Shown here one piece after another: positions 6,836-29,236 of a stretch of 36,996 bases of DNA. Both the position numbers and the translations under genes were made by a program. The stretch is taken from contig JAHEJO010000009.1 of NCBI GenBank assembly GCA_024638805.1, positions 1 through 36,996 of the forward strand. Direction: 5' to 3'. The notes below the pieces were generated by a model. The model saw only the letters and a list, made by a program, of their open reading frames with translations. It was not told the DNA's origin and ran no database searches. Origin of the DNA: Acidimicrobiales bacterium. Its GTDB lineage: Bacteria; Actinomycetota; Acidimicrobiia; Acidimicrobiales; SZUA-35. Numbering within the stretch: the first letter of the stretch is position 1; each line of letters begins with the position of its first letter.

Positions 6836-7300
6836 TCAGCCGCCGAAGAGTTGGTCGGCCTTGGCCTTCAACCGCTGTTCAGCCCCGTCATCGTGCGAAC
6901 CGATGTGGGACCAGTGGATCGTGCCCTCACGGTCCAGGAGAACGGTCCAGATCTGTTGTTCGTCGGCGAGCCCGGCCTGGCGCAGGAATCGTCCCCGGTC
7001 GGTGTACACGGTGATCGTGCGGGACCGCGTTCGCGGGTCGGGGATGCCCGAGCGCATGCCATTGTCGATCCACCATCGGATCGGGCCCGGGAATCGAACG
7101 AGCAACGGTACTTCGTAGACAGCGAGCCCCGGGTACTTGCTCTCGACGTCGCCGAGACGCTCGATCCACTCGTCGATCACCTGCTGTTGACGCCGGAGGA
7201 AGGCGACGAACACCAGGTTGGCTCGCCCCTCCAGATCGGCGGGAATCGTGTAGTGCTGCGCGCTGAGCGACGAACCCTCCAGCACGGGGAAGCGGCTCAT
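6836..7300 (-). CDS. Thioredoxin-fold (redoxin/ATP10-like) protein without cysteines
   Basis: A 154-residue protein with a redoxin-like layout: NLVFVAFLRRQQQVIDEWI in the beta-alpha unit where a CxxC would sit, then YEVPLL, then a late beta pair TVLLDREGTIHWSHIG with the thioredoxin-fold GxIxW pattern. It resembles AhpC/TSA or the mitochondrial ATP10 fold. The whole protein contains no cysteine, so it cannot do thiol chemistry. The ATG overlaps the stop of the ABC permease gene as ATGA, so it is the third member of the exporter operon. A scaffold, chaperone or ligand-binding role with the exporter is inferred. No signal peptide is seen. Confidence 0.65.
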   Translation of the reverse strand: MSRFPVLEGSSLSAQHYTIPADLEGRANLVFVAFLRRQQQVIDEWIERLGDVESKYPGLAVYEVPLLVRFPGPIRWWIDNGMRSGIPDPRTRSRTITVYTDRGRFLRQAGLADEQQIWTVLLDREGTIHWSHIGSHDDGAEQRLKAKADQLFGG

Positions 7301-8952
7301 TGTTGGCGAAGATCCCGTCGGTCGAACAGCAGGACCGACGCCACGAGCATGATGGCGATGAGGGTGGTGAGCAGGGCGGCATGGCCCCAGTTCATGCCGT
7401 TGATGAGCGGGTCACTGCTCAGGTAGTAGTAGTTCGGCGTCCACTTGGCGTAGCCGGCCATACGAGCGCTCAGAGGTAGAAACGAGTTGAGGAGATGCGA
7501 CGCCAAGGCGAGCCCGATCGTGCCGTAGACCGCGATCTTGGTCTGCCCGGTGGCGGCGCTGAGCAGAAGTGCGAACGCACCGAACAGGAGGCCGAGCAGG
7601 GTGACGAGGATCGAGGTGGCGGCGATTCCGGCGATGCTCATTCCCAAACCGGACACGATCGAGGCGACGGCAACGCCGGCGAAGGTGGCGAGCCCGACGA
7701 CGGCGGCATAGAGCACCATGGCGACCACCTGGTTGAGCACCACCGTCGAGCGCTCGATCGGGTTGGCCAGCAGTAGTCCGATCGTGTGATTTGCCTCCTC
7801 GCCGGCCAGGGCTCGGGCACCGATGACGATCGTCACGATCATGATGGCGATCGGTGCCATCAGCGAGAACGTCTCGATCTGGAAGAAGCCCTCCGGGGTG
7901 GACATATCGCCGCCGCCGGCGATGGCGATGAGGGCTTCGGGCAATTGCTCGCTCATGCTGGCAAGGTCCGCCTCGATGGCGCTGTACATCGGTCCGAGCA
8001 TGACCCCCATCACGGCGAACATCGTCACCGACACCACGATCAACAGCCCCTGATGTTCCGACGCCGTTTTGATCCACAGCCTGGAGACCCGCGTGGATCC
8101 GGCAAGTCGATCGACCATCCGGTTGGTGGCGGGGTTGGCCCGGAGCCGATCCAGGACCGTCACCCCCGAACTCTGGCCTCGGAGATCACGCCGGTTCACA
8201 CCGACGACCGCCAGGACTCCGAGAAGCGCACAACCGGCCAGGAGAACCGACAGGTGGCCCCAGTCGACGCCGTTCACGAGCGGGTCGCTGGCGTTGTAGT
8301 AGTACCAGGGAAAGACTCGGGCCAGATCGGCCAGGCTCTCGATCAAGGGCAGCAAGCCGACCGCGAAATACGAGAGCACCATCACGCCGGCGGTGGCACC
8401 CGATGCGAGCGATCGGTTGCCGGTCCACCCGCCGATGGCGGCGGCCATGAAGCCGTAGAAGATCGAGTTCACGCCGAGGTGCAGCATCATGGCCCCGACG
8501 TGGGTCTGGCCGATCTCCACGTCGAGGAGGGCTGGGATCCCGAGGCCGGCGGCCCAGAGGACGACGGTGACGGCGGCGATCAGCGTCACCATGGACGTGA
8601 TCTTGGAGACCAGCACGTTGGTGCGGCTCTTCGGATTGGCGAGCAGCAGCCCGATCGTCCCGCCGCGTTCCTCGCCTGCGATGGCCGCAGCACCCATCGA
8701 GATGGCCAGCCCGGCGAGGGTGAGCGCCCCCATGGCGCTGAGCATCACGTTGTAGGAGAGGCTGGCGGCGTCGGCGCCCTCTGGGATCCCCATCAGCTCT
8801 CGCAGGCTCTGCGGTAGATCGGTGTAGATCGACAGGTCGATGTCGCTGTAGACGGCCATCGCATACAGCATGAAAAGAGCGAGGACCGACGTGGCGATCG
8901 TCATGCCGAGTCTGCGGTCGCGGATCGTTTTGGCGTAGATCGTTGTCAACAT
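7297..8952 (-). CDS. ABC-2 type exporter permease, internally duplicated
   Basis: A 551-residue integral membrane protein with about 12 predicted helices in two homologous halves. Each half has the same landmarks in order: an N-terminal entry helix, GEERGGTIGLLLANPKSR / GEEANHTIGLLLANPIER, a block of hydrophobic helices, FPWYYYNASDPLVNG / TPNYYYLSSDPLING, and a final VNRRDLRG / FDRRDLRQ. The family is the large polytopic permease of actinobacterial antibiotic-type ABC exporters (TnrB-like). The ATG overlaps the ATPase stop as TGATG, and its stop overlaps the redoxin-like gene as ATGA. With its ATPase it should export a hydrophobic or amphipathic compound; the substrate is unknown. Confidence 0.85.
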   Translation of the reverse strand: MLTTIYAKTIRDRRLGMTIATSVLALFMLYAMAVYSDIDLSIYTDLPQSLRELMGIPEGADAASLSYNVMLSAMGALTLAGLAISMGAAAIAGEERGGTIGLLLANPKSRTNVLVSKITSMVTLIAAVTVVLWAAGLGIPALLDVEIGQTHVGAMMLHLGVNSIFYGFMAAAIGGWTGNRSLASGATAGVMVLSYFAVGLLPLIESLADLARVFPWYYYNASDPLVNGVDWGHLSVLLAGCALLGVLAVVGVNRRDLRGQSSGVTVLDRLRANPATNRMVDRLAGSTRVSRLWIKTASEHQGLLIVVSVTMFAVMGVMLGPMYSAIEADLASMSEQLPEALIAIAGGGDMSTPEGFFQIETFSLMAPIAIMIVTIVIGARALAGEEANHTIGLLLANPIERSTVVLNQVVAMVLYAAVVGLATFAGVAVASIVSGLGMSIAGIAATSILVTLLGLLFGAFALLLSAATGQTKIAVYGTIGLALASHLLNSFLPLSARMAGYAKWTPNYYYLSSDPLINGMNWGHAALLTTLIAIMLVASVLLFDRRDLRQQ

Positions 8953-10548: not shown

Positions 10549-12099
10549 TCAGTACCAGGCGTCGGGCATCGACTCCTTGCGGCCAGCGACGAAATCGATC
10601 AGTGCGTCGTCGATATCGCGGTCGATGGCCGGTGGCTCGTACTCGGCCAGCATTCGTTTCCATTCGAGGTTGGCGCGTCGTTGGCTGTCGAGACCGCCGT
10701 CGTCGGTCCATTGCTCGAACGAGTCGGTATTCGCCATCGCGGAGTCGTAGTTGGCCGTTTCGAGGTTGTCGAGCGTATGACGGGTACCGAGGAACGCAAC
10801 GCCGGGTCCTGCCTCGCGGTAGGCCTCGGATCCGAGCTGGTTGTCGTCGATCGTCAGCCCGTCGATGAATCGGTGGATCATGCCGCAACGGTCGAGATCG
10901 ACCACGAACTTCTCGTAGCTCATCGTCAGCCCACCCTCGAGCCAGCCGGCCGCATGGATGACGTAGTTGGTTCCGGCGAGGATTCCGGCGGTCATGGCGT
11001 CGGCCGATTCCTGCATCGCCTGGGCGTCGACCGTCTTCGATGCGGTGTAGTGGGCGCCGCACCGCAGCGGCAGCCCCAGGCGACGGGCGAGCTGTCCTAT
11101 CGCGAAGGTGGCCAGTACCGACTCCGGCGTGCCGAAGGTCGGCGCGCCGGACTTGAGATTCATCGTGGTCAGGAAGTTGCCGTACACCATCGGTGAGCCC
11201 GGCCGCACGAGCTGACTCAAGGCGATGCCGGTCAGCGCCTCGGCGTGGGCCTGCGCAATCAGCGCCGGCTGAGTGACCGGACCCATCGCCCCGCCGATGA
11301 TGAATGGGGAGATCACGCACCCCTGGTTGGCGCGGGCGTAGATCTTGAGAGCTCCGCTCATCACGTCGTCCCACACGAGTGGGGAGTTGACGTTGATGTT
11401 TCCTTGGACGACGCAGTGATTCTCGACGAAGTCATCCCCGAAGACGATTCGGGCCATGTCGATCGAATCCTCGGCCCGTTCAGGAGCGGTGACCGAACCC
11501 ATGAACGGCTTGGTGGACCAGCGCAGGTGGGCGTAGACCATGTCGAGGTGGCGCTTGTTGACCGGCACATCGACCGGTTCGCATACCGTGCCACCGGAGT
11601 GGTGCAGCCACGGGGACATGTAGGTGAGCTTCACGAAGTTCTCGAAGTCCTCGAGCGTCGCGTAGCGCCGGCCACGGTCGAGATCGGACACGAAGGGTGG
11701 GCCATAGGCGGGCAACAGGACGAGGTTGTTTCCACCGATCGGCACGATTCGGCCGTCCCGTCCGTGCATCTCGAAGTGGGCTGGGGCGGTGGCGCAGAGA
11801 GCTTTCGCAAGTCCCGGCTCGAATCGGACCCTCACGCCGTCCACTCGGGCGCCGGCGTCGCTGAAGAGCTGGAGCGCCTCCTCGTCGCCGAGGAACTCGA
11901 CACCGACCTCATCGAGAATCCAATCGGCATGGTTCTCCAAACCGTCGAGTTGTGCGTCGTCGAGTAGCTCATAGGTCGGTATCCGACGCAGCGGGACCGG
12001 CGATCGGCCTGGCGCCGGCCGTGCGGCGGCCCGCCGTTGGGCGCGAGCGACGCGACCACCACCCCTTCGCCCCGGCCGAACGGAAGAGTCCTGTGTCAC
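10549..12099 (-). CDS. Trimethylamine methyltransferase (MttB) superfamily protein, non-pyrrolysine
   Basis: About 516 residues, the normal MttB size. After a basic, disordered N-terminus (RPGRRGGGRVARAQRRAAARP) come RIPTYELLDDAQLDGLENHADWILDEVGVEF and the TIM-barrel regions GGNNLVLLPAYGPPFVSDL, GSVTAPERAEDSI, QGNINVNSPLVWDDVM, ISPFIIGGAMGPVTQPALIAQAHAEALTGIALSQ and GAPTFGTPES. The reading frame has no internal TAG, so it is a pyrrolysine-free member like glycine-betaine:corrinoid methyltransferases. It probably demethylates a quaternary or tertiary methylamine onto a corrinoid protein or an unknown methyl acceptor; no corrinoid protein gene is in the window. GTG at 12097-12099 was chosen; GTG at 12115-12117 is an alternative. 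Divergent from xylA. Confidence 0.85.
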   Translation of the reverse strand: MTQDSSVRPGRRGGGRVARAQRRAAARPAPGRSPVPLRRIPTYELLDDAQLDGLENHADWILDEVGVEFLGDEEALQLFSDAGARVDGVRVRFEPGLAKALCATAPAHFEMHGRDGRIVPIGGNNLVLLPAYGPPFVSDLDRGRRYATLEDFENFVKLTYMSPWLHHSGGTVCEPVDVPVNKRHLDMVYAHLRWSTKPFMGSVTAPERAEDSIDMARIVFGDDFVENHCVVQGNINVNSPLVWDDVMSGALKIYARANQGCVISPFIIGGAMGPVTQPALIAQAHAEALTGIALSQLVRPGSPMVYGNFLTTMNLKSGAPTFGTPESVLATFAIGQLARRLGLPLRCGAHYTASKTVDAQAMQESADAMTAGILAGTNYVIHAAGWLEGGLTMSYEKFVVDLDRCGMIHRFIDGLTIDDNQLGSEAYREAGPGVAFLGTRHTLDNLETANYDSAMANTDSFEQWTDDGGLDSQRRANLEWKRMLAEYEPPAIDRDIDDALIDFVAGRKESMPDAWY

Positions 12100-12356
12100 A
12101 GGTACATCTTGGAGCACGTTCCGGCGTCGTGCCGTGGTGATCGCACGATACGTGACCCGGGGCTTTCCGAGCCCGAGGGCTTCGAGCCTGGGGGTGGTGA
12201 CTCGACGGTCGGGCCTGCGCCCCAGAACCCCCCTGCTGCGAGGAACCCGCCGTGGGGCCCCCTCGACCGGCTACAGCGCTGGAGCTCGGCTGACCTACTG
12301 TTGGGGATCACCGCAGCGCCCACCGCATGCGGCGTCATCCACCGAGGAGCCGACCG
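12100..12356. promoter_or_regulatory. Divergent intergenic region between mttB-like gene and xylA
   Basis: About 257 bases without a coding signature. It must hold the promoters of the leftward methyltransferase and rightward xylA. It contains a short hairpin AGCCC-GA-GGGCT (12170-12181) and further GC-rich partial repeats of it (GAGCC). No clear -35/-10 pair was recognised. GAGGAG at 12344-12349 is the xylA ribosome binding site. Confidence 0.4.
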
Positions 12357-15142: not shown

Positions 15143-15490
15143 CATCCGGTCAAAGGTCGACCGACCTCTCCAACGAGCCGAGCCGAGCCGCAGCGGACCC
15201 GACGTGGAACGCCGACCTGGTTGTCGGCAAGAACCTGTTCGCCGGCCACTGCAACGATGCGGTCGAGTGGTGGTGGCCCGAGCGGGTCGTGGCAGCGCAA
15301 TGTCGTTGCAGCACAATTGCCGATCTCGACCGGAAGCCTGGACGTCCTCGATCCGACTCCCGCCCCCGATCAGGCCCCGACGACGGTCCGGGCCGTCCTT
15401 CGGAGCGGTTCGGTGAGTACGGACCTCGGGGAGATCGATGTGGGTGATCTGAAGCTCGTGAACGACGGCTACAACTTCTTCGCCGGTTGA
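15139..15490 (+). pseudogene. Frameshifted coding remnant after xylB
   Basis: After xylB, good codon bias (GC-rich third positions) runs in one frame through PTWNADLVVGKNLFAGHCND to VVAAQ at about 15300, then continues in the next frame from a second VVAAQ through LPISTGSLDVLDPTPAPDQ to LVNDGYNFFAG and a TGA at 15488-15490. The switch point is a 16-base imperfect tandem duplication (15286-15317). Removing one copy restores a single frame of about 111 codons from a TTG at 15139 that overlaps the xylB stop. I do not recognise the protein. The 3' end overlaps the convergent phosphatase gene by about 22 bases. It may be a recent pseudogene, or an expressed short protein ending soon after the shift. 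Confidence 0.5.
15286..15317 (+). repeat. 16-base tandem duplication that shifts the reading frame
   Basis: Copy one is GTCGTGGCAGCGCAAT (15286-15301) and copy two is GTCGTTGCAGCACAAT (15302-15317). They differ at two third-codon positions, and each encodes VVAAQ in its own frame. Sixteen bases is not a multiple of three, so the copy moves the downstream frame by one. Confidence 0.8.
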
Positions 15491-17892
15491 ATCGAGCGTT
15501 GCTTTCTACGGCGCTCCACTCGCAGATCGGCGAAGAGGGGGAGATGATCGGATGCGGTTCGGGTCAGATGTGTATGCGGCACCTCCACGTGGAGGATGTC
15601 GAGCGAATCGTCGATGAAGATGTGGTCGATCCGGGCCAGCGGCCAGCGGCCTCCCCAGGTTCGACGGGGGCGATGACCGTCGAGACCGATCTGGACATCG
15701 GTGAGATACCGGCCGATCGAGCGGCAGGTCGGGAATCCCGGGCCGGCATTGAAGTCTCCGCACAGCACCAGGTGTGCATCCGATGGGACCCCGCCGAGCC
15801 ATTCCGGCCCGATCAGGGCCTCAACCTGAAGGCGGCGTTCCCGCGGGTGGACGCTCAGGTGGGTGTTGATCACCGTGTAGGTGACATCGCCGGCATCGAT
15901 CTCGACCTGGACCGCCCCGCGGGGCTCCAGTTCGGGGTGGCCGTCCAGCTGCGGGAGTGAACCGGTGCGCACGACCCGCATCGGCAACCGGCTGAGTATG
16001 GCGTCGCCGAACTGTTCCTCGGCGACCGCATAGGTTGGGTGGAAATGAACGATCATGCCGAGATGGCGAGCGATGGCCTCCGCCTGGTCGATTCCACCGG
16101 TCTGGCTACGGCCGACGTCCAGCTCCTGCAATGCGACCACGTCCGGCTCGATCCTGGCGATCACACGGGCGATGCGTTCGGGCGACAGTGTCCCGTCGAG
16201 GCCGATGCAACTGTGCACGTTGTAGGTGACCAGACGTAGGGTGGTGCCATCGTGCTGACGGCCCCACCGATCGACCGGTCGGTTGGCGGCACCCTCGAGC
16301 AAGTGCAGGGCGGCGCGGCGAAGATCTCCGGCACGAAGGGGCGTCGCGCCGTCCCAGTCCAGGGCGGTGTCGGCTGGAGCGCACACGAACGCCCTCGTCT
16401 CACGAGGTCCGGGGCCGGCGTGGGAGCCGTTTTCGTGGGTGAAGCTGACCGGCGGTCCCGAAAGGCGCCAACCGGACATGACGAGCTCGCCGGCATCGGG
16501 ATGATGACAGATCCCGACCAGGTCGCGGGCGGCCTCATCCAGATAGGGGTGATCCGATCCGAGGATCGCAGCTGCCTCGTCGGGGAGACGGCGGGTACCG
16601 CCAGCGGTCCAGGCGATCGCCGAACGGTTGCCGTCCGGCGCGAGGATCATCGGTACGTCAGCACGATCGACCAGGTCTGTGGCCATCGCCGAACGTTGTT
16701 CGTCCGTCAGCGGTTCTGGCAGGTAGATGTGGCCGAGCGGGCCAAACGCGGTGGTGGTGGCTTTCTGAGGATCCCACCACCGAGGTCTCAGCTCCAGACC
16801 CGGCACGATGGCCTCGGCGAGTCGCGAACCGAGCATCATCGCACGCTGACCCTGGACGCCTTCACGTGGTTCGGGAGAGGTCTCGTGCTCGATTCCGTGG
16901 CGAGCGAGCACCTCGCCGATGGCTTCGCCCACCAACCGACCGTGGATCGATTCGTAGGGTTCGGTTCGTTCCTGCCCGTGGTCTGAGAACACGAAGACGT
17001 CGTAGTGGCGGGCGTCGCTGCGACGGGCTCCGCGAACCAGCCGGCCGATCACCCGATCGATCCCTCGGAGTGCCCGCAGCGCGTCATCAGAACCCGGCCC
17101 CCGGCGATGGGCCCACTCGTCATAGCCGAGGAGGTCGAGATGGATCACCGGCAGGCCCCTGGTCATGTCGATGATGGCGAGGGTGGCCAGAGCTTCGCGG
17201 AGCACCACGCTGACCCCGATCCGGGCCTGAAGGAACCGAAGTTCCTCGCCGAAGGGCTGACCTTTCCTCACCGCCTCGAGAAGCTGGGGAACTCCGACCA
17301 GCAGTTCCGCGCCGGCGAACGCCGTCGCACGAACGGCGTCGAACCCGTGGGCGAGGACCACTCGGGGCAGGTGGCGGGGGCGCGACGCCTGGAAGAGGTC
17401 GCCGTAGCCGAGCGTGGCCATCGAGAATCTTGTCACGGCCGCACCGCCGCGGTAGATGTTCCCGTAGGAGCTTCCGCCGTCGAGCAGCCCGCGGCCGTTG
17501 AGGCCGGCCTCGATCGTGCTCGCTGCGTCCCGATCCGACATACGAAAGACCCGTCCGGTCTTCCTGTGGACGAAGCCGTATGCCGGCACCGCGCCCTCGC
17601 ACCCATAGAAAAGTTCGGCCTGAAAGGCGGGAGTCGATGACGGCACGCCGGCGTAGAGCGGAGCAAGGCGGTACGGCTCGCCGGCTCGGAGGCGGGCGAG
17701 GTTCGGCATCAGCCCGGATTCACACGCCTGGCCCAGCTCGTCGAATCCGAGCCCGTCGATCTGGATCAGGAGTACACCCTGGGTGCCCGACGTCGTGTCG
17801 GTCCCGGGTCCGTTGGCCTTTGCGGACCCCCAGCGGTGACGATCGACCGAACGCCTGACCCTCCGCCTCCACCGCTCCACCAAATCGATCAC
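15469..17892 (-). CDS. Fusion: alkaline-phosphatase-superfamily domain + endonuclease/exonuclease/phosphatase domain
   Basis: An 807-residue, two-domain metalloenzyme. Residues about 38-535 are an alkaline phosphatase/nucleotide pyrophosphatase-type domain: metal ligand Asp46 in IQIDGLGFDEL, likely nucleophile Thr87 in PSSTPAFQAE, LDLLGYDEWAHRRG (Asp258, His262), FSDHGQE (Asp304, His305) and FTHENGSHAG (His486). Residues about 550-795 are an EEP domain (DNase I/sphingomyelinase fold) with all signature residues: VTYNVHS (Asn558), LQELDV (Glu590), NTHLS, CGDFNAGP, RIDHIFI (Asp756) and SDHLPLF (His783). No signal peptide or membrane helix is evident; the N-terminus is strongly basic. GTG start at 17890-17892. 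Expected to cleave phosphodiesters, possibly in two steps; substrate unknown. Confidence 0.85.
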   Translation of the reverse strand: MIDLVERWRRRVRRSVDRHRWGSAKANGPGTDTTSGTQGVLLIQIDGLGFDELGQACESGLMPNLARLRAGEPYRLAPLYAGVPSSTPAFQAELFYGCEGAVPAYGFVHRKTGRVFRMSDRDAASTIEAGLNGRGLLDGGSSYGNIYRGGAAVTRFSMATLGYGDLFQASRPRHLPRVVLAHGFDAVRATAFAGAELLVGVPQLLEAVRKGQPFGEELRFLQARIGVSVVLREALATLAIIDMTRGLPVIHLDLLGYDEWAHRRGPGSDDALRALRGIDRVIGRLVRGARRSDARHYDVFVFSDHGQERTEPYESIHGRLVGEAIGEVLARHGIEHETSPEPREGVQGQRAMMLGSRLAEAIVPGLELRPRWWDPQKATTTAFGPLGHIYLPEPLTDEQRSAMATDLVDRADVPMILAPDGNRSAIAWTAGGTRRLPDEAAAILGSDHPYLDEAARDLVGICHHPDAGELVMSGWRLSGPPVSFTHENGSHAGPGPRETRAFVCAPADTALDWDGATPLRAGDLRRAALHLLEGAANRPVDRWGRQHDGTTLRLVTYNVHSCIGLDGTLSPERIARVIARIEPDVVALQELDVGRSQTGGIDQAEAIARHLGMIVHFHPTYAVAEEQFGDAILSRLPMRVVRTGSLPQLDGHPELEPRGAVQVEIDAGDVTYTVINTHLSVHPRERRLQVEALIGPEWLGGVPSDAHLVLCGDFNAGPGFPTCRSIGRYLTDVQIGLDGHRPRRTWGGRWPLARIDHIFIDDSLDILHVEVPHTHLTRTASDHLPLFADLRVERRRKQRSIQPAKKL

Positions 17893-25607: not shown

Positions 25608-26960
25608 TCAGATCTGTTCGAAGTAGCGCGTGCGTTCCCAGTCGGTGACCGCGGTCTGGAACGCCTCGATCTCGGCTTCGGCGAAGCGGCTGTAGTGTTC
25701 GACGACATCGGGTCCGAACGTGCGTGTTGCGATGTCGCTCGTTCTGAAGTGGGCGAGTGCCTCCTCGAGGGTCGAGGGCACACGAGGAAGATCGCCGGCT
25801 GAATAGACGTCGCCGCTGAACATCGGCGGTGGGTCGATCCGTCGTTCGATCCCTTCCAATCCGCTGGCGAGGGCGGCGGCGTAGACGAGATAGGGGTTGC
25901 AGTCGGCGCCGGGGATCCGGCACTCGATCCGAGAGCTCGGCCCCTCGCCGACCACCCGGAAGCCGGCGGTGCGATTGTCCTGTGACCATGCCAGGCGGGT
26001 CGGAGCCCACGACGCTTCCCGAAACCGTTTGTAGGAGTTGACCGTCGGTGCGTAGCACAGCATGAAATCCTTCGCATGAGCGATCCAGCCGCCGAGGAAC
26101 CATCGGAAGGTGTCGCTGTGACCGCCGTTGGCGTCGACGAACACGTTGGTGTTGTTCTCGGTGTCCCAGAGGCTCAGGTGGATGTGGCAGCTGTTGCCGG
26201 CTTCGGCGGTGAACGGCTTGGCCATGAAGGTGACGCTCACCCCGAGTCGGTCGGCGAGCTCCTTCATGGCGTGTTTCATCACCGCGTGCCGGTCCGCCAT
26301 GGTCAACGCATCGGTGTAGCGAATGTTGAGTTCGTGCTGACCGCGCCCGGCTTCGCCTTTGGAGTTCTCGACCGGAATCCCGGTGTGGCGCAGTGCCCGG
26401 CGGGCCGCACCTACGTAACCCTCCACTCGCGAACCCTGCAAGAGGTGGTAGTCCTCGATGTACCAGCCGGCTGCCCGCAGGTCGGCGTAGCCCCGCTCGT
26501 GAGCTTCCCGGTACGAATCGTCGTAGAGGAAGAACTCGATCTCCGATGCTGCCTTCGCCTCCAAGCCGAGGGATGCCGACCTGTCGAGCTGGCGCTGGAG
26601 GATCGAGCGGGGCGCCACGCCAACGGGCGCATGGGCCTGGTCGTCGACCACGTCGCAGAGAACGATCGCTGCGCGGTCGGTCCAACCGGCGCGGGACAAC
26701 GTGGCGAGGTCAGGGACGAGATGGAAGTCGCCGTAACCCTTCTCCCAGCTGGCGAATCGGTAGCCGGTGACCGGTTCCATCTCCATGTCGGTGGTGAGCA
26801 GGTAGTTGCAGGCGTGCGTGCCGCTGCTCAACCCGTCCTCGACGAAGAAGTCGGCGTCGAAGCGTTTGCCGAGCAGTCGTCCGTAATGATCGGTGAAGCC
26901 GACGATCACCGTGTCGATCTCCCCCGATCGGACCAGCTCGATCAGCTCGTCAGTAGTCAT
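25608..26960 (-). CDS. Glutamine synthetase family ligase (PuuA/GlnA-like)
   Basis: A 450-residue ATP-dependent ligase. The beta-grasp N-terminus (TDELIELVRSGEIDTVIVGFTDHYGRLLGKRF) is followed by the catalytic domain with its metal and substrate motifs: KAASEIEFFLYD, NSKGEAGRGQHELNIRY, FMAKPFTAEAGNSCHIHLSLWD, APTVNSYKRF, APTRLAWSQDNRTAGFRV and RIECRIPGADCNPYL. The length and motifs fit the gamma-glutamylpolyamine or type III-like branch instead of classical GlnA; it makes a gamma-glutamyl amide from glutamate plus ammonia or an amine. ATG 26958-26960 was chosen over an upstream TTG. No polyamine genes lie beside it. It converges with the ABC importer and is divergent from the lipoprotein leader region. 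Confidence 0.9.
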   Translation of the reverse strand: MTTDELIELVRSGEIDTVIVGFTDHYGRLLGKRFDADFFVEDGLSSGTHACNYLLTTDMEMEPVTGYRFASWEKGYGDFHLVPDLATLSRAGWTDRAAIVLCDVVDDQAHAPVGVAPRSILQRQLDRSASLGLEAKAASEIEFFLYDDSYREAHERGYADLRAAGWYIEDYHLLQGSRVEGYVGAARRALRHTGIPVENSKGEAGRGQHELNIRYTDALTMADRHAVMKHAMKELADRLGVSVTFMAKPFTAEAGNSCHIHLSLWDTENNTNVFVDANGGHSDTFRWFLGGWIAHAKDFMLCYAPTVNSYKRFREASWAPTRLAWSQDNRTAGFRVVGEGPSSRIECRIPGADCNPYLVYAAALASGLEGIERRIDPPPMFSGDVYSAGDLPRVPSTLEEALAHFRTSDIATRTFGPDVVEHYSRFAEAEIEAFQTAVTDWERTRYFEQI

Positions 26961-27035
26961 AGGTGCGTGACCGTAGCCGCCGGGACCCGGAGCCGTCGTG
27001 CCCGACAAGCGATGACGTCCCGGGAACCGATCGGT

Positions 27036-27191
27036 ATGAGCTGTCGTCGTAACGGTGTGACACTCCGCATCTGCCCGTCTGCCATCGCCCTGCTGTTGCT
27101 GGCGGTTTCGTGCGGTCCCGAAACCGCCGGGCCAGGAAGTCCGGCGCCGACATCACCCCCAGGACCCGATCGGGTCATAGGACCGTCCGGG
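27036..27191 (+). pseudogene. Orphan lipoprotein leader, truncated gene relic
   Basis: Reading rightward from ATG 27036 gives a basic start (MSCRRNGVTLR), a hydrophobic core (CPSAIALLLLAVSC) ending in a lipobox LAVSC with Cys at about residue 26, and a Pro/Gly/Thr/Ser-rich linker (GPETAGPGSPAPTSPPGPDR). This is a textbook lipoprotein N-terminus. From about 27192 the frame merely runs antisense to the MscS gene with no domain of its own. It looks like the 5' remnant of a lipoprotein gene whose body has been lost, or a very short lipoprotein. No ribosome binding site is evident. Confidence 0.4.
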
Positions 27192-28175
27192 CTACGGGTC
27201 TGCCGGCTTCTCCGCTCGCTGGCTCCGCATGGGTCGGCGAAGCTGTCGCGCCCGGCGCTTGACCTGGGTGGCGCGGTCGTCGAGACCCGGTTGCTGTGTG
27301 TGCACTTGCGCCGGAATCTCGGTGTACGGGGCGGCGACACTCGGTTCGCCTCGCCACATGGTGAGCTGCGGGAAGGCGATCGTGATCCCGGCGATGGCGA
27401 ACGCCTGATGAATCGCGATCACGAGGTCGTGGCGGGCGGCGAGCTCGGCGGGGATGTCGCTGGCATGCCAGTACAGCACGGTAATCCCGATGCTCGAATC
27501 GCCGAATCCGTTGACAGTGACCGCCGGCGGCGGGTCCGCAAGGACTCTCGGCACGCGGGTGAGCGCCTCCTGGATCGTTTGAGTGGCGAGCTGGAGGTCC
27601 GTGTCGTACGCGACACCCACGTCCAGACCGCTCCGCCGAGCCGGCTCGCGGGAGAGGTTGACGATCACATTCGAGACGACATTGGAGTTGGGGATCCTGA
27701 TGGAGGTGCCGTCGAGCCCCTTCAGAACGGTCGTGCGGGAATCGATATCCGCGACGATCCCGAGATGGTCATCCAGCCGGACGGTGTCGCCGATCGTGAA
27801 CGGTCTGCGGGCCTGGAGGATGACTCCGGCGATGAAGTTCTCGACGAGGCGCTGCAGGGCGAGCGCCAAGACAAGGCCGCCAAGACCGAGGGCTCCAAGG
27901 AGCGGCCCGACCCTGACGCCCAGGATCGTGAGCGAGTAGAACAGCCCGATCAGGAAGATGACGTAGGCGATCAAGCGGCTGGCGATGATGGAAGCGAAGC
28001 CGGTGCCCATACCGTGAGCGATAAGCCGGCGCAGGATCCGGTTGGTGAGGACGGCGAGGAGAACGGCGCCGAGGAGGACCGCTCCGGCCCGTACCCAGTC
28101 GCTGCTGGTGAGCGGATCGACGACGATCTCTTCGGTCGTCACCCGGATGACGTAGAAGGTGGTCAGCGTGGACAT
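27192..28175 (-). CDS. Small-conductance mechanosensitive channel (MscS family)
   Basis: A 327-residue inner-membrane channel. It has hydrophobic helices near residues 25-45 and 65-90, then the pore helix GPLLGALGLGGLVLALALQRLVENFIAGVIL with its Gly/Ala pattern. The beta domain follows: RRPFTIGDTVRLDDHLGIVADIDSRTTVLKGLDGTSIRIPNSNVVSNVIVNLS. A C-terminal alpha/beta domain ends in IAFPQLTM, and a basic tail of about 50 residues is added. It opens under membrane tension to release solutes on hypo-osmotic shock. ATG 28173-28175 was chosen over an upstream in-frame start. It stands alone, next to divergent sugar-acid genes. Confidence 0.92.
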   Translation of the reverse strand: MSTLTTFYVIRVTTEEIVVDPLTSSDWVRAGAVLLGAVLLAVLTNRILRRLIAHGMGTGFASIIASRLIAYVIFLIGLFYSLTILGVRVGPLLGALGLGGLVLALALQRLVENFIAGVILQARRPFTIGDTVRLDDHLGIVADIDSRTTVLKGLDGTSIRIPNSNVVSNVIVNLSREPARRSGLDVGVAYDTDLQLATQTIQEALTRVPRVLADPPPAVTVNGFGDSSIGITVLYWHASDIPAELAARHDLVIAIHQAFAIAGITIAFPQLTMWRGEPSVAAPYTEIPAQVHTQQPGLDDRATQVKRRARQLRRPMRSQRAEKPADP

Positions 28176-28233
28176 GAACTCGTGAACAGTGTCGCACCGA
28201 AACGATGCTCCGCCTCGCCGATTCCACAACGGT

Positions 28234-28239
28234 TACAGT
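28234..28239 (+). promoter_or_regulatory. -10 element implying a leaderless 2-hydroxyacid dehydrogenase mRNA
   Basis: TACAGT ends 7 bases before the GTG start at 28247, so transcription from it would begin at or next to the start codon. No ribosome binding site is present, which agrees with leaderless translation. The -35 is not recognisable. Confidence 0.4.
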
Positions 28240-28246
28240 CAAGATC

Positions 28247-29236
28247 GTGCGGGTCTTCCTCACCCACAACCCCGAGGATCTCGACGCCTATTACAGCACT
28301 GCACTACCCCAGCTCGAGGCTATCGCCGAGGTCGTGCGCAACCCGGTCGATCACGATCTGAGCACCGCCGAGTTGATCGAGGAGGCCGCCGGGTGTCAGG
28401 TCGTCGTGGCCCACCGCGCCACGCCCGCGGAGGCCTCGCTTTTCGATGGATCGCCCGATCTGCTGGCGTTCCTCCGCTGTGCGGTCGACATCAGCACCGT
28501 CGATGTCGACGCGGCCAGCCGGAACGGGGTGCTCGTGGCCCGGGCGGACAAGAGCTTCGTGGCCTCGACCGCCGAACTCGCGCTGGGTCTCCTTCTCGAC
28601 ACCGCCCGCAACATCAGTGCGTCGACGATGGACTACCAGCTCGGGCGCCCACCGCCCCAGCGCGCGGGACGCCAACTCCGGGGACGGACGGCCGGGATCA
28701 TCGGCTACGGGTCGATCGGTAGCTATCTGGCCGATCTGCTGCTGGCCCTGGGCATGCGGGTGCTGGTCTGTGACCCCTACGTGAGGGAGGTGTCCGACGA
28801 TGTTCTCCTCGTGGGCCTCGATCGGTTACTGGCCGACGCCGACGTCGTCTTCCCGTTGGCAACTGCAGAACCCTCGACGGCCAACTTGATCGGCGCTGCC
28901 GAGCTGGCCGCGATGAAGCCGGGTGCAACCTTGATCAATGTGTCGCGTGGCGAACTCCTCGACGAACACGCGGTTGGCGAGGCCTTGGACAACGGAGTCC
29001 TGGGTGCCCTCGGAATGGATGTCGGCCGAGCTCCCGATCAGCGACCGTCGCCCGGCCTGGTCGCACGACCGGGCGTGGTGGCCACCCCCCACCTCGGAGG
29101 TCTCACTCCGGAGAACGCCAACGCCCAGGCGGCCAGCAGCGTCGAGCAGGTCCAGGCCATGCTCGCCGGTTCCATGCCGCCTCGAACCGTCAATGCCGAC
29201 GCTGCCACCCGTCTGCTGGCCTTCTGGTCACGATGA
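28247..29236 (+). CDS. D-2-hydroxyacid dehydrogenase family NAD(P)-dependent oxidoreductase
   Basis: A 329-residue two-domain dehydrogenase. The NAD-binding domain has GRTAGIIGYGSIG (GxGxxG, near residue 155) and the acidic CDPY after beta-2. The catalytic Arg lies in LINVSRGELLDEHAV and the His in VVATPHLGGLTPENANAQ. In place of the DVFxxEP loop that holds the catalytic Glu of phosphoglycerate dehydrogenase there is GMDVGRAPDQRPSPGL. I recall this DVGRAPDQ variant in a subfamily found next to amidohydrolase genes. It probably interconverts a 2-hydroxy and 2-keto acid. GTG 28247 fits the fold start. Its stop overlaps the amidohydrolase ATG as ATGA, so they are coupled. Confidence 0.88.
   Translation: MRVFLTHNPEDLDAYYSTALPQLEAIAEVVRNPVDHDLSTAELIEEAAGCQVVVAHRATPAEASLFDGSPDLLAFLRCAVDISTVDVDAASRNGVLVARADKSFVASTAELALGLLLDTARNISASTMDYQLGRPPPQRAGRQLRGRTAGIIGYGSIGSYLADLLLALGMRVLVCDPYVREVSDDVLLVGLDRLLADADVVFPLATAEPSTANLIGAAELAAMKPGATLINVSRGELLDEHAVGEALDNGVLGALGMDVGRAPDQRPSPGLVARPGVVATPHLGGLTPENANAQAASSVEQVQAMLAGSMPPRTVNADAATRLLAFWSR

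Follow-up and report, generated by a model that had tools for sequence, protein, structure and literature searches.

A fused AP–EEP phosphoesterase of an Acidimicrobiales bacterium with a tentative role in membrane lipid or glycolipid metabolism

The stretch of DNA analysed here (36,996 nucleotides, hereafter the window) is one contig of an Acidimicrobiales assembly that comprises 2.79 Mb in 213 contigs and is 84.6% complete. It carries on its reverse strand a single unbroken open reading frame of 807 codons (Table 1), present in one copy in the assembly. The frame starts with GTG, a start supported by the homologues, whose beginnings (MI[DG]R.E..) share its alignment column. The N-terminal part of the product matches the Phosphodiest family of the alkaline phosphatase (AP) superfamily (PF01663, residues 40–316, E = 2.4e-11, 44.2 bits against a Pfam cut-off of 23) and the C-terminal part matches the full length of the Exo_endo_phos profile (EEP; PF03372, residues 555–783, profile positions 1–225 of 225, E = 2.1e-21, 77.1 bits against 24.5). 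The EEP domain also displays a partial PGAP2IP-type match (PF23226, residues 556–693, 35 bits against a cut-off of 27), the general EEP profile being the better match overall, and exonuclease III models reach 24.7 bits on the protein, far under their cut-off of 99. Read by eye, the N-terminus of the protein shows no apparent signal peptide.

Table 1. Features of the fusion gene and its product in the window
Feature	Coordinates	Strand	Basis
AP–EEP fusion gene, 807 aa, GTG start	15469..17892	−	open frame; homologue start column; 35 other full-length fusions
Residues 1–25, cationic amphipathic helices MIDLVERWRRRVRRSVDRHRWGSAK	17818..17892	−	model, low confidence; anchor role inferred
Residues 37–535, AP-superfamily domain, NPP type	16288..17784	−	PF01663; model; invariant residues
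Residues 175–245, AP-domain insert of two long helices	17158..17370	−	model; hydrophobicity
Residues 536–550, interdomain linker	16243..16287	−	low pLDDT; alignment variability
Residues 551–795, complete EEP domain	15508..16242	−	PF03372 full profile; model; invariant residues

The gene is flanked by an FGGY kinase gene and a divergent DUF2071 gene, with no glycosyltransferase next to it and no phospholipase D (PLD)/cardiolipin synthase gene beside its EEP-coding part. Further away, the window contains a trimethylamine methyltransferase (MTTB) family gene (10549–12117, reverse strand, E = 2e-212). The open reading frame at 26076–28361 was considered as a glycosidase-like partner and rejected because its translation bears no such resemblance and the window genome has no match to the GH15-like family described below; nor does this genome encode a close homologue of the GT4 glycosyltransferase found in relatives.

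The first-pass annotation had described the protein as a fusion of the two domains, and the fusion is genuine. Besides the unbroken frame, 35 further full-length copies with the same domain order were found in separate genomes of Acidimicrobiia, Gammaproteobacteria and Omnitrophota, and GC3 is even along the gene (0.773 in the AP half and 0.788 in the EEP half), which rules out an assembly artefact. In a scan of the collection, full-length homologues were 70% identical in another Acidimicrobiia metagenome-assembled genome (L002), 46% in Methylobacter (L003), 44% in a gammaproteobacterium (L006) and about 41% in two Omnitrophota (L004 and L005). Profile searches of genome sets at E ≤ 1e-50 returned matches in 33 of 285 Omnitrophota genomes (about 27 of them combining AP and EEP in a single frame, five having EEP only), 9 of 321 genomes of the gammaproteobacterial class, 3 of 121 of the family of the Methylobacter genome and 2 of 345 of the class of the window. 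Neither 148 near relatives nor a sample of 296 genomes from the window's phylum yielded another full fusion. The fusion is patchily distributed. In a tree of 34 sequences, the window protein groups with that of L002 (support 100/100) and the gammaproteobacterial fusions group with one another (90/94); the two actinobacterial proteins fall next to a single Omnitrophota sequence with weak support (78/95); the gene has likely been transferred between phyla. A scan of IMG/VR with two short peptide patterns yielded no viral relative, and no plasmid record covers 80% of the fusion, the best plasmid matches being single EEP genes.

We saw no fusion that is naturally split: an apparent division into two genes at L114 was rejected, as the break sits in assembly runs of N. 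A third actinobacterial copy (L124:2744–5125, forward strand, genome G1124), 48% identical in the AP and 63% in the EEP domain, lies downstream of genes that, read by eye, resemble TrkA-type potassium-uptake regulators. In the family of the window genome, a 120-residue frame (L013:1489–1848, reverse strand, G027) resembles both ends of the window protein, its start corresponding to residues 107–136 (87%) and its end to residues 736–805 (73%); it is either a remnant that lacks about 600 codons in frame or an assembly chimera.

Residue conservation was scored over 36 aligned fusions, that is, the window protein and the 35 other full-length copies. In the AP domain, Asp46, Thr87, Asp258, His262, Asp304, His305 and His491 are present in all 36; so are Asn558, Glu590, His678, Asp713, Asn715 and Asp756 of the EEP domain, and Asp782 and His783 are kept in all 35 fusions that are ungapped at that place. 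From sequence, Thr87 is the predicted nucleophile of the AP domain, with Asp46, Asp304 and His305 as one predicted set of zinc ligands and Asp258, His262 and His491 as the other. Both catalytic sets had earlier been read as intact, and the residues then named are all conserved save one: His486 is a histidine in just 2 of the 36 fusions, which rules it out as a zinc ligand. The third ligand of its set is likely His491, judging by its position and invariance.

An AlphaFold2 model of the window protein built with 34 sequences has a pLDDT of 86.4 and a pTM of 0.88. Residues 37–540 of the model align with Xac NPP (Z 24.1), ENPP5 (Z 24.2) and ENPP4, ENPP6 and ENPP7 (Z about 24), the AP domain being about 14–22% identical to solved NPPs, and its matches take in nucleotide pyrophosphatases. 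Residues 548–796 align with 4ruw (Z 30.7), TDP2 (about 25) and human neutral sphingomyelinase (24.5), with CNOT6L and nocturnin as further matches. ENPP6, ENPP7 and neutral sphingomyelinase are lipid-cleaving members of the two folds. Sequence, invariant residues and predicted structure agree that two unrelated metal-dependent phosphoesterase folds reside in one chain, as the first-pass annotation had it. The AP domain has the fold, the Thr nucleophile and both zinc-ligand sets in common with the nucleotide pyrophosphatase/phosphodiesterase (NPP/ENPP) family (PF01663), to which the window protein adds a two-helix insert and the C-terminal EEP domain. The linker between the domains drops below pLDDT 50 at residues 538–544 and varies among the aligned fusions.

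Two features of the protein may point to a membrane. At the N-terminus, helices 2–16 and 18–25 are modelled with low confidence; residues 1–34 have a helical moment of 0.78 and a net charge of +5, and the helices are a possible membrane-surface anchor. The insert in the AP domain forms helices 175–209 and 214–245 in the model, and the maximal KD19 of the first exceeds 1.6 in 31 of 34 sequences; in the window protein it is 1.27, i.e. weakly hydrophobic. We infer that the N-terminal amphipathic helix and the AP insert attach the window protein to the membrane on its inner side.

The gene neighbourhood in relatives was counted by tblastn over 35 loci. The common operon reads VTT/DedA, GH15-like, GT4 and, last, AP–EEP, with gene ends that touch or overlap. 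Of the 35 loci, 28 have GT4 in the same chain as AP–EEP or directly upstream, and L096 has it about 4 kb downstream, giving 29 in total; the GH15-like gene is present at 26. At ten loci, all from Omnitrophota, GT4, AP and EEP form one chain; those of the chains that were included in the tree belong to a single clade (96/99), whose ten members also comprise two without the GT4 fusion. The best curated NCBIfam models for GT4 are alpha-monoglucosyl-diacylglycerol synthase (133 bits, cut-off 400) and glucosaminyl-phosphatidylglycerol synthase (123 bits, cut-off 480), so that it is nearest to models of lipid glycosyltransferases yet under every curated cut-off. The GH15-like partner (760 residues) has no Pfam or NCBIfam match; its model (pLDDT 80.8, the first 100 residues being unreliable) has the glucoamylase-type (alpha/alpha)6 fold, with dextran dextrinase (Z 32.3) and a bacterial glucoamylase (Z 31.1) as matches. 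L003:4211–6634, L005:4426–6708 and their homologues form a conserved family of 750–770 residues, and GT4 accompanies it in every case here. Only three loci (L005, L094 and L096) contain an alpha-amylase/branching-enzyme (GlgB-like) gene. A supposed fusion of GT4 to the glycosidase at L106 was rejected, the long frame being an over-extended ORF. Both GT4 and GH15-like neighbours are absent at the two other actinobacterial loci, L002 and L124, the latter cut by a contig end; at L002, an inorganic pyrophosphatase gene (7077–7685, forward strand) shares 4 bases with the 3′ end of the fusion gene. Since the window genome lacks the GH15-like gene and a close GT4, the operon evidence comes from relatives at 40–46% identity and may not transfer fully.

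Related EEP domains also stand alone in Omnitrophota and rhizobia. At L107, L108 and partly L110 (Omnitrophota), a stand-alone EEP gene adjoins a cardiolipin-synthase-like gene (PLDc_N/PLDc_2), accompanied by the GH15-like, VTT and GT4 genes of the fusion operons. At L107, the gene directly downstream of GT4 (11051–11932) encodes a GtrA/DPMS transmembrane domain joined to a PqiA domain. The EEP protein of Rhizobium lentis, 51% identical to the window EEP domain, has PLD-like and LPG-synthase-domain genes as neighbours, a layout that matches ybhP-clsB-ybhN of E. coli, the identity to YbhP itself being only 24%. These loci indicate that this EEP subfamily occurs together with enzymes acting on phospholipid headgroups, by cleavage or by transfer; the AP domain seems to occupy the position held by PLD in the sister operons. 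As genomes G464 and G702 carry both kinds of locus, the swap is not strict.

Several known systems share parts of this arrangement. In the rhizobial EEP–PLD–LPG-synthase locus and in YbhP-ClsB-YbhN, whose kind of PLD partner recurs in the Omnitrophota sister operons, EEP is a separate gene beside a PLD gene, whereas in the window it is fused to AP; that layout is confined to the stand-alone EEP relatives. The nearest actinobacterial relatives of the window AP domain, at 27–34% identity, are Holin_4_2–Phosphodiest fusions of Actinomycetota, which have an N-terminal domain of four transmembrane segments and no EEP domain; L042, L043, L044, L049, L009 and L012 display this Phage_holin_4_2–Phosphodiest layout, L042 with a Yip1 domain in addition. 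PlcP is a metallophosphoesterase with a different fold. In PlcP–Agt, a phospholipase adjoins a diacylglycerol glycosyltransferase and serves lipid remodelling (PMC4796936), as a phosphodiesterase adjoins GT4 at 28–29 of 35 fusion loci and not in the window. In gpgSDF of P. aeruginosa, the glucosaminyl-phosphatidylglycerol operon, a GT4 enzyme acts on phosphatidylglycerol and adjoins a predicted flippase (PMC12713373), an analogous layout with a deacetylase where the fusion operons have phosphodiesterases; its GT4 model is the second-best, far-under-cut-off NCBIfam match given above. The window EEP domain passes the cut-off of the GlcNAc-PDase/PGAP2IP (Cwh43) group, the known members of which have sugar-linked phosphodiesters as substrates or function in GPI-lipid remodelling; PGAP2IP clusters with GlcNAc-PDase, an enzyme that takes phosphocholine off GlcNAc (PMC10704324). 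Unlike the two-domain window protein, GlcNAc-PDase has a single domain and is secreted. We found no account of the AP–EEP architecture or of its operon in the open-access literature; it may be annotated elsewhere. Both domains belong to known families; what is new is this variant arrangement.

Combining these findings, we tentatively favour, at somewhat less than an even chance, a two-step phosphodiesterase that is cytosolic, associates with the membrane and serves lipid or glycolipid metabolism by feeding or recycling a glycolipid pathway. Held on the inner membrane by its amphipathic helix and helical insert, the protein would use its AP domain, with the Thr nucleophile and two zincs, to cleave the phosphodiester at the headgroup of a phospholipid or phosphoglycolipid in the membrane; EEP, which depends on Mg2+, would then attack the AP product or the second ester bond. 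The joint outcome would be either the release of a diacylglycerol-like acceptor for GT4 or the recycling of a phosphoglycolipid that GT4 had made, and in the lineage of the window the protein would work without an adjacent GT4 or glycosidase. The AP domain is put on the PLD-like step because a cardiolipin-synthase-type PLD replaces it in sister operons, and this order, AP before EEP, is the weakest step of the mechanism, resting as it does on the swap. Autotaxin (ENPP2) of the NPP family is a lysophospholipase D. Since each fold has diesterases as well as monoesterases among its members, either domain could act first. That the two are functionally coupled is supported indirectly by their fusion with both sites intact across three phyla, the split at L114 lying in runs of N. 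Consecutive cleavage of a diester and then a monoester on one substrate, as first suggested, is a plausible proposal, and of the phospholipid, cyclic nucleotide or polymer proposed alongside, a lipid or lipid-linked glycan best suits the conserved neighbourhood.

Several observations stand against a lipid substrate: GT4 and the GH15-like gene are absent at all three actinobacterial loci, GT4 scores under all curated cut-offs, the insert helix of the window protein is weakly hydrophobic, and the GH15-like and, at a few loci, GlgB-like neighbours suit glycan metabolism too. NPP enzymes cleave nucleotide substrates as well. The main rival is a glycan or alpha-glucan enzyme, in which the NPP domain would hydrolyse NDP-sugars, limiting GT4, and the EEP domain would remove phosphodiester substituents of sugars, the operon making and trimming an oligo- or polysaccharide. 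This reading, which we consider unlikely, is based on the glycosidase partner with its glucoamylase-type fold, the three GlgB-like genes and the PGAP2IP-type match of the EEP domain combined with the GlcNAc-PDase precedent (PMC10704324). It is countered by the VTT/DedA and PLD/cardiolipin-synthase neighbours and the hydrophobic insert, which point to membranes, by the restriction of GlgB-like genes to three loci, and by the lack of an apparent signal peptide, in contrast to the secreted GlcNAc-PDase.

Somewhat less likely again, the two domains could be functionally independent enzymes with different substrates, their fusion serving to co-express them or to bring both to the membrane. The low-confidence, variable linker, the stand-alone EEP relatives of Omnitrophota and rhizobia, and the attachment of the nearest actinobacterial AP relatives to a four-segment holin-type domain would suit such an arrangement; the absence of natural splits argues against it, and so may the pTM, which suggests a defined arrangement of the domains in the model. 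A stronger form of the lipid proposal, a phospholipid-to-glycolipid converter that would be fullest as the GT4–AP–EEP chain of Omnitrophota, has the phosphoesterases strip the headgroup, GT4 cap the lipid, DedA move the product across the membrane and the GH15-like enzyme trim it; we rate it as rather improbable. Turnover of nucleic acids or signal nucleotides by an NPP and a TDP2-like or nuclease-like EEP is very unlikely, as the resemblance of EEP to TDP2, CNOT6L and nocturnin and of AP to nucleotide pyrophosphatases is offset by the low exonuclease III scores and by a neighbourhood devoid of nucleic-acid genes and dominated by glycosyltransferase, glycosidase and membrane proteins.

If the favoured role in lipid metabolism is true, AP–EEP proteins would turn over membrane lipids with a pair of non-homologous phosphoesterases instead of PlcP or PLD, a route that would be present in relatives of methanotrophs, other Gammaproteobacteria, Omnitrophota and a few Acidimicrobiia. 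Furthermore, because EEP here shares a chain with another phosphodiesterase and, in some cases, with the glycosyltransferase, these proteins would offer a handle on the role of the EEP partner at cardiolipin-synthase loci, that of YbhP and its kin.
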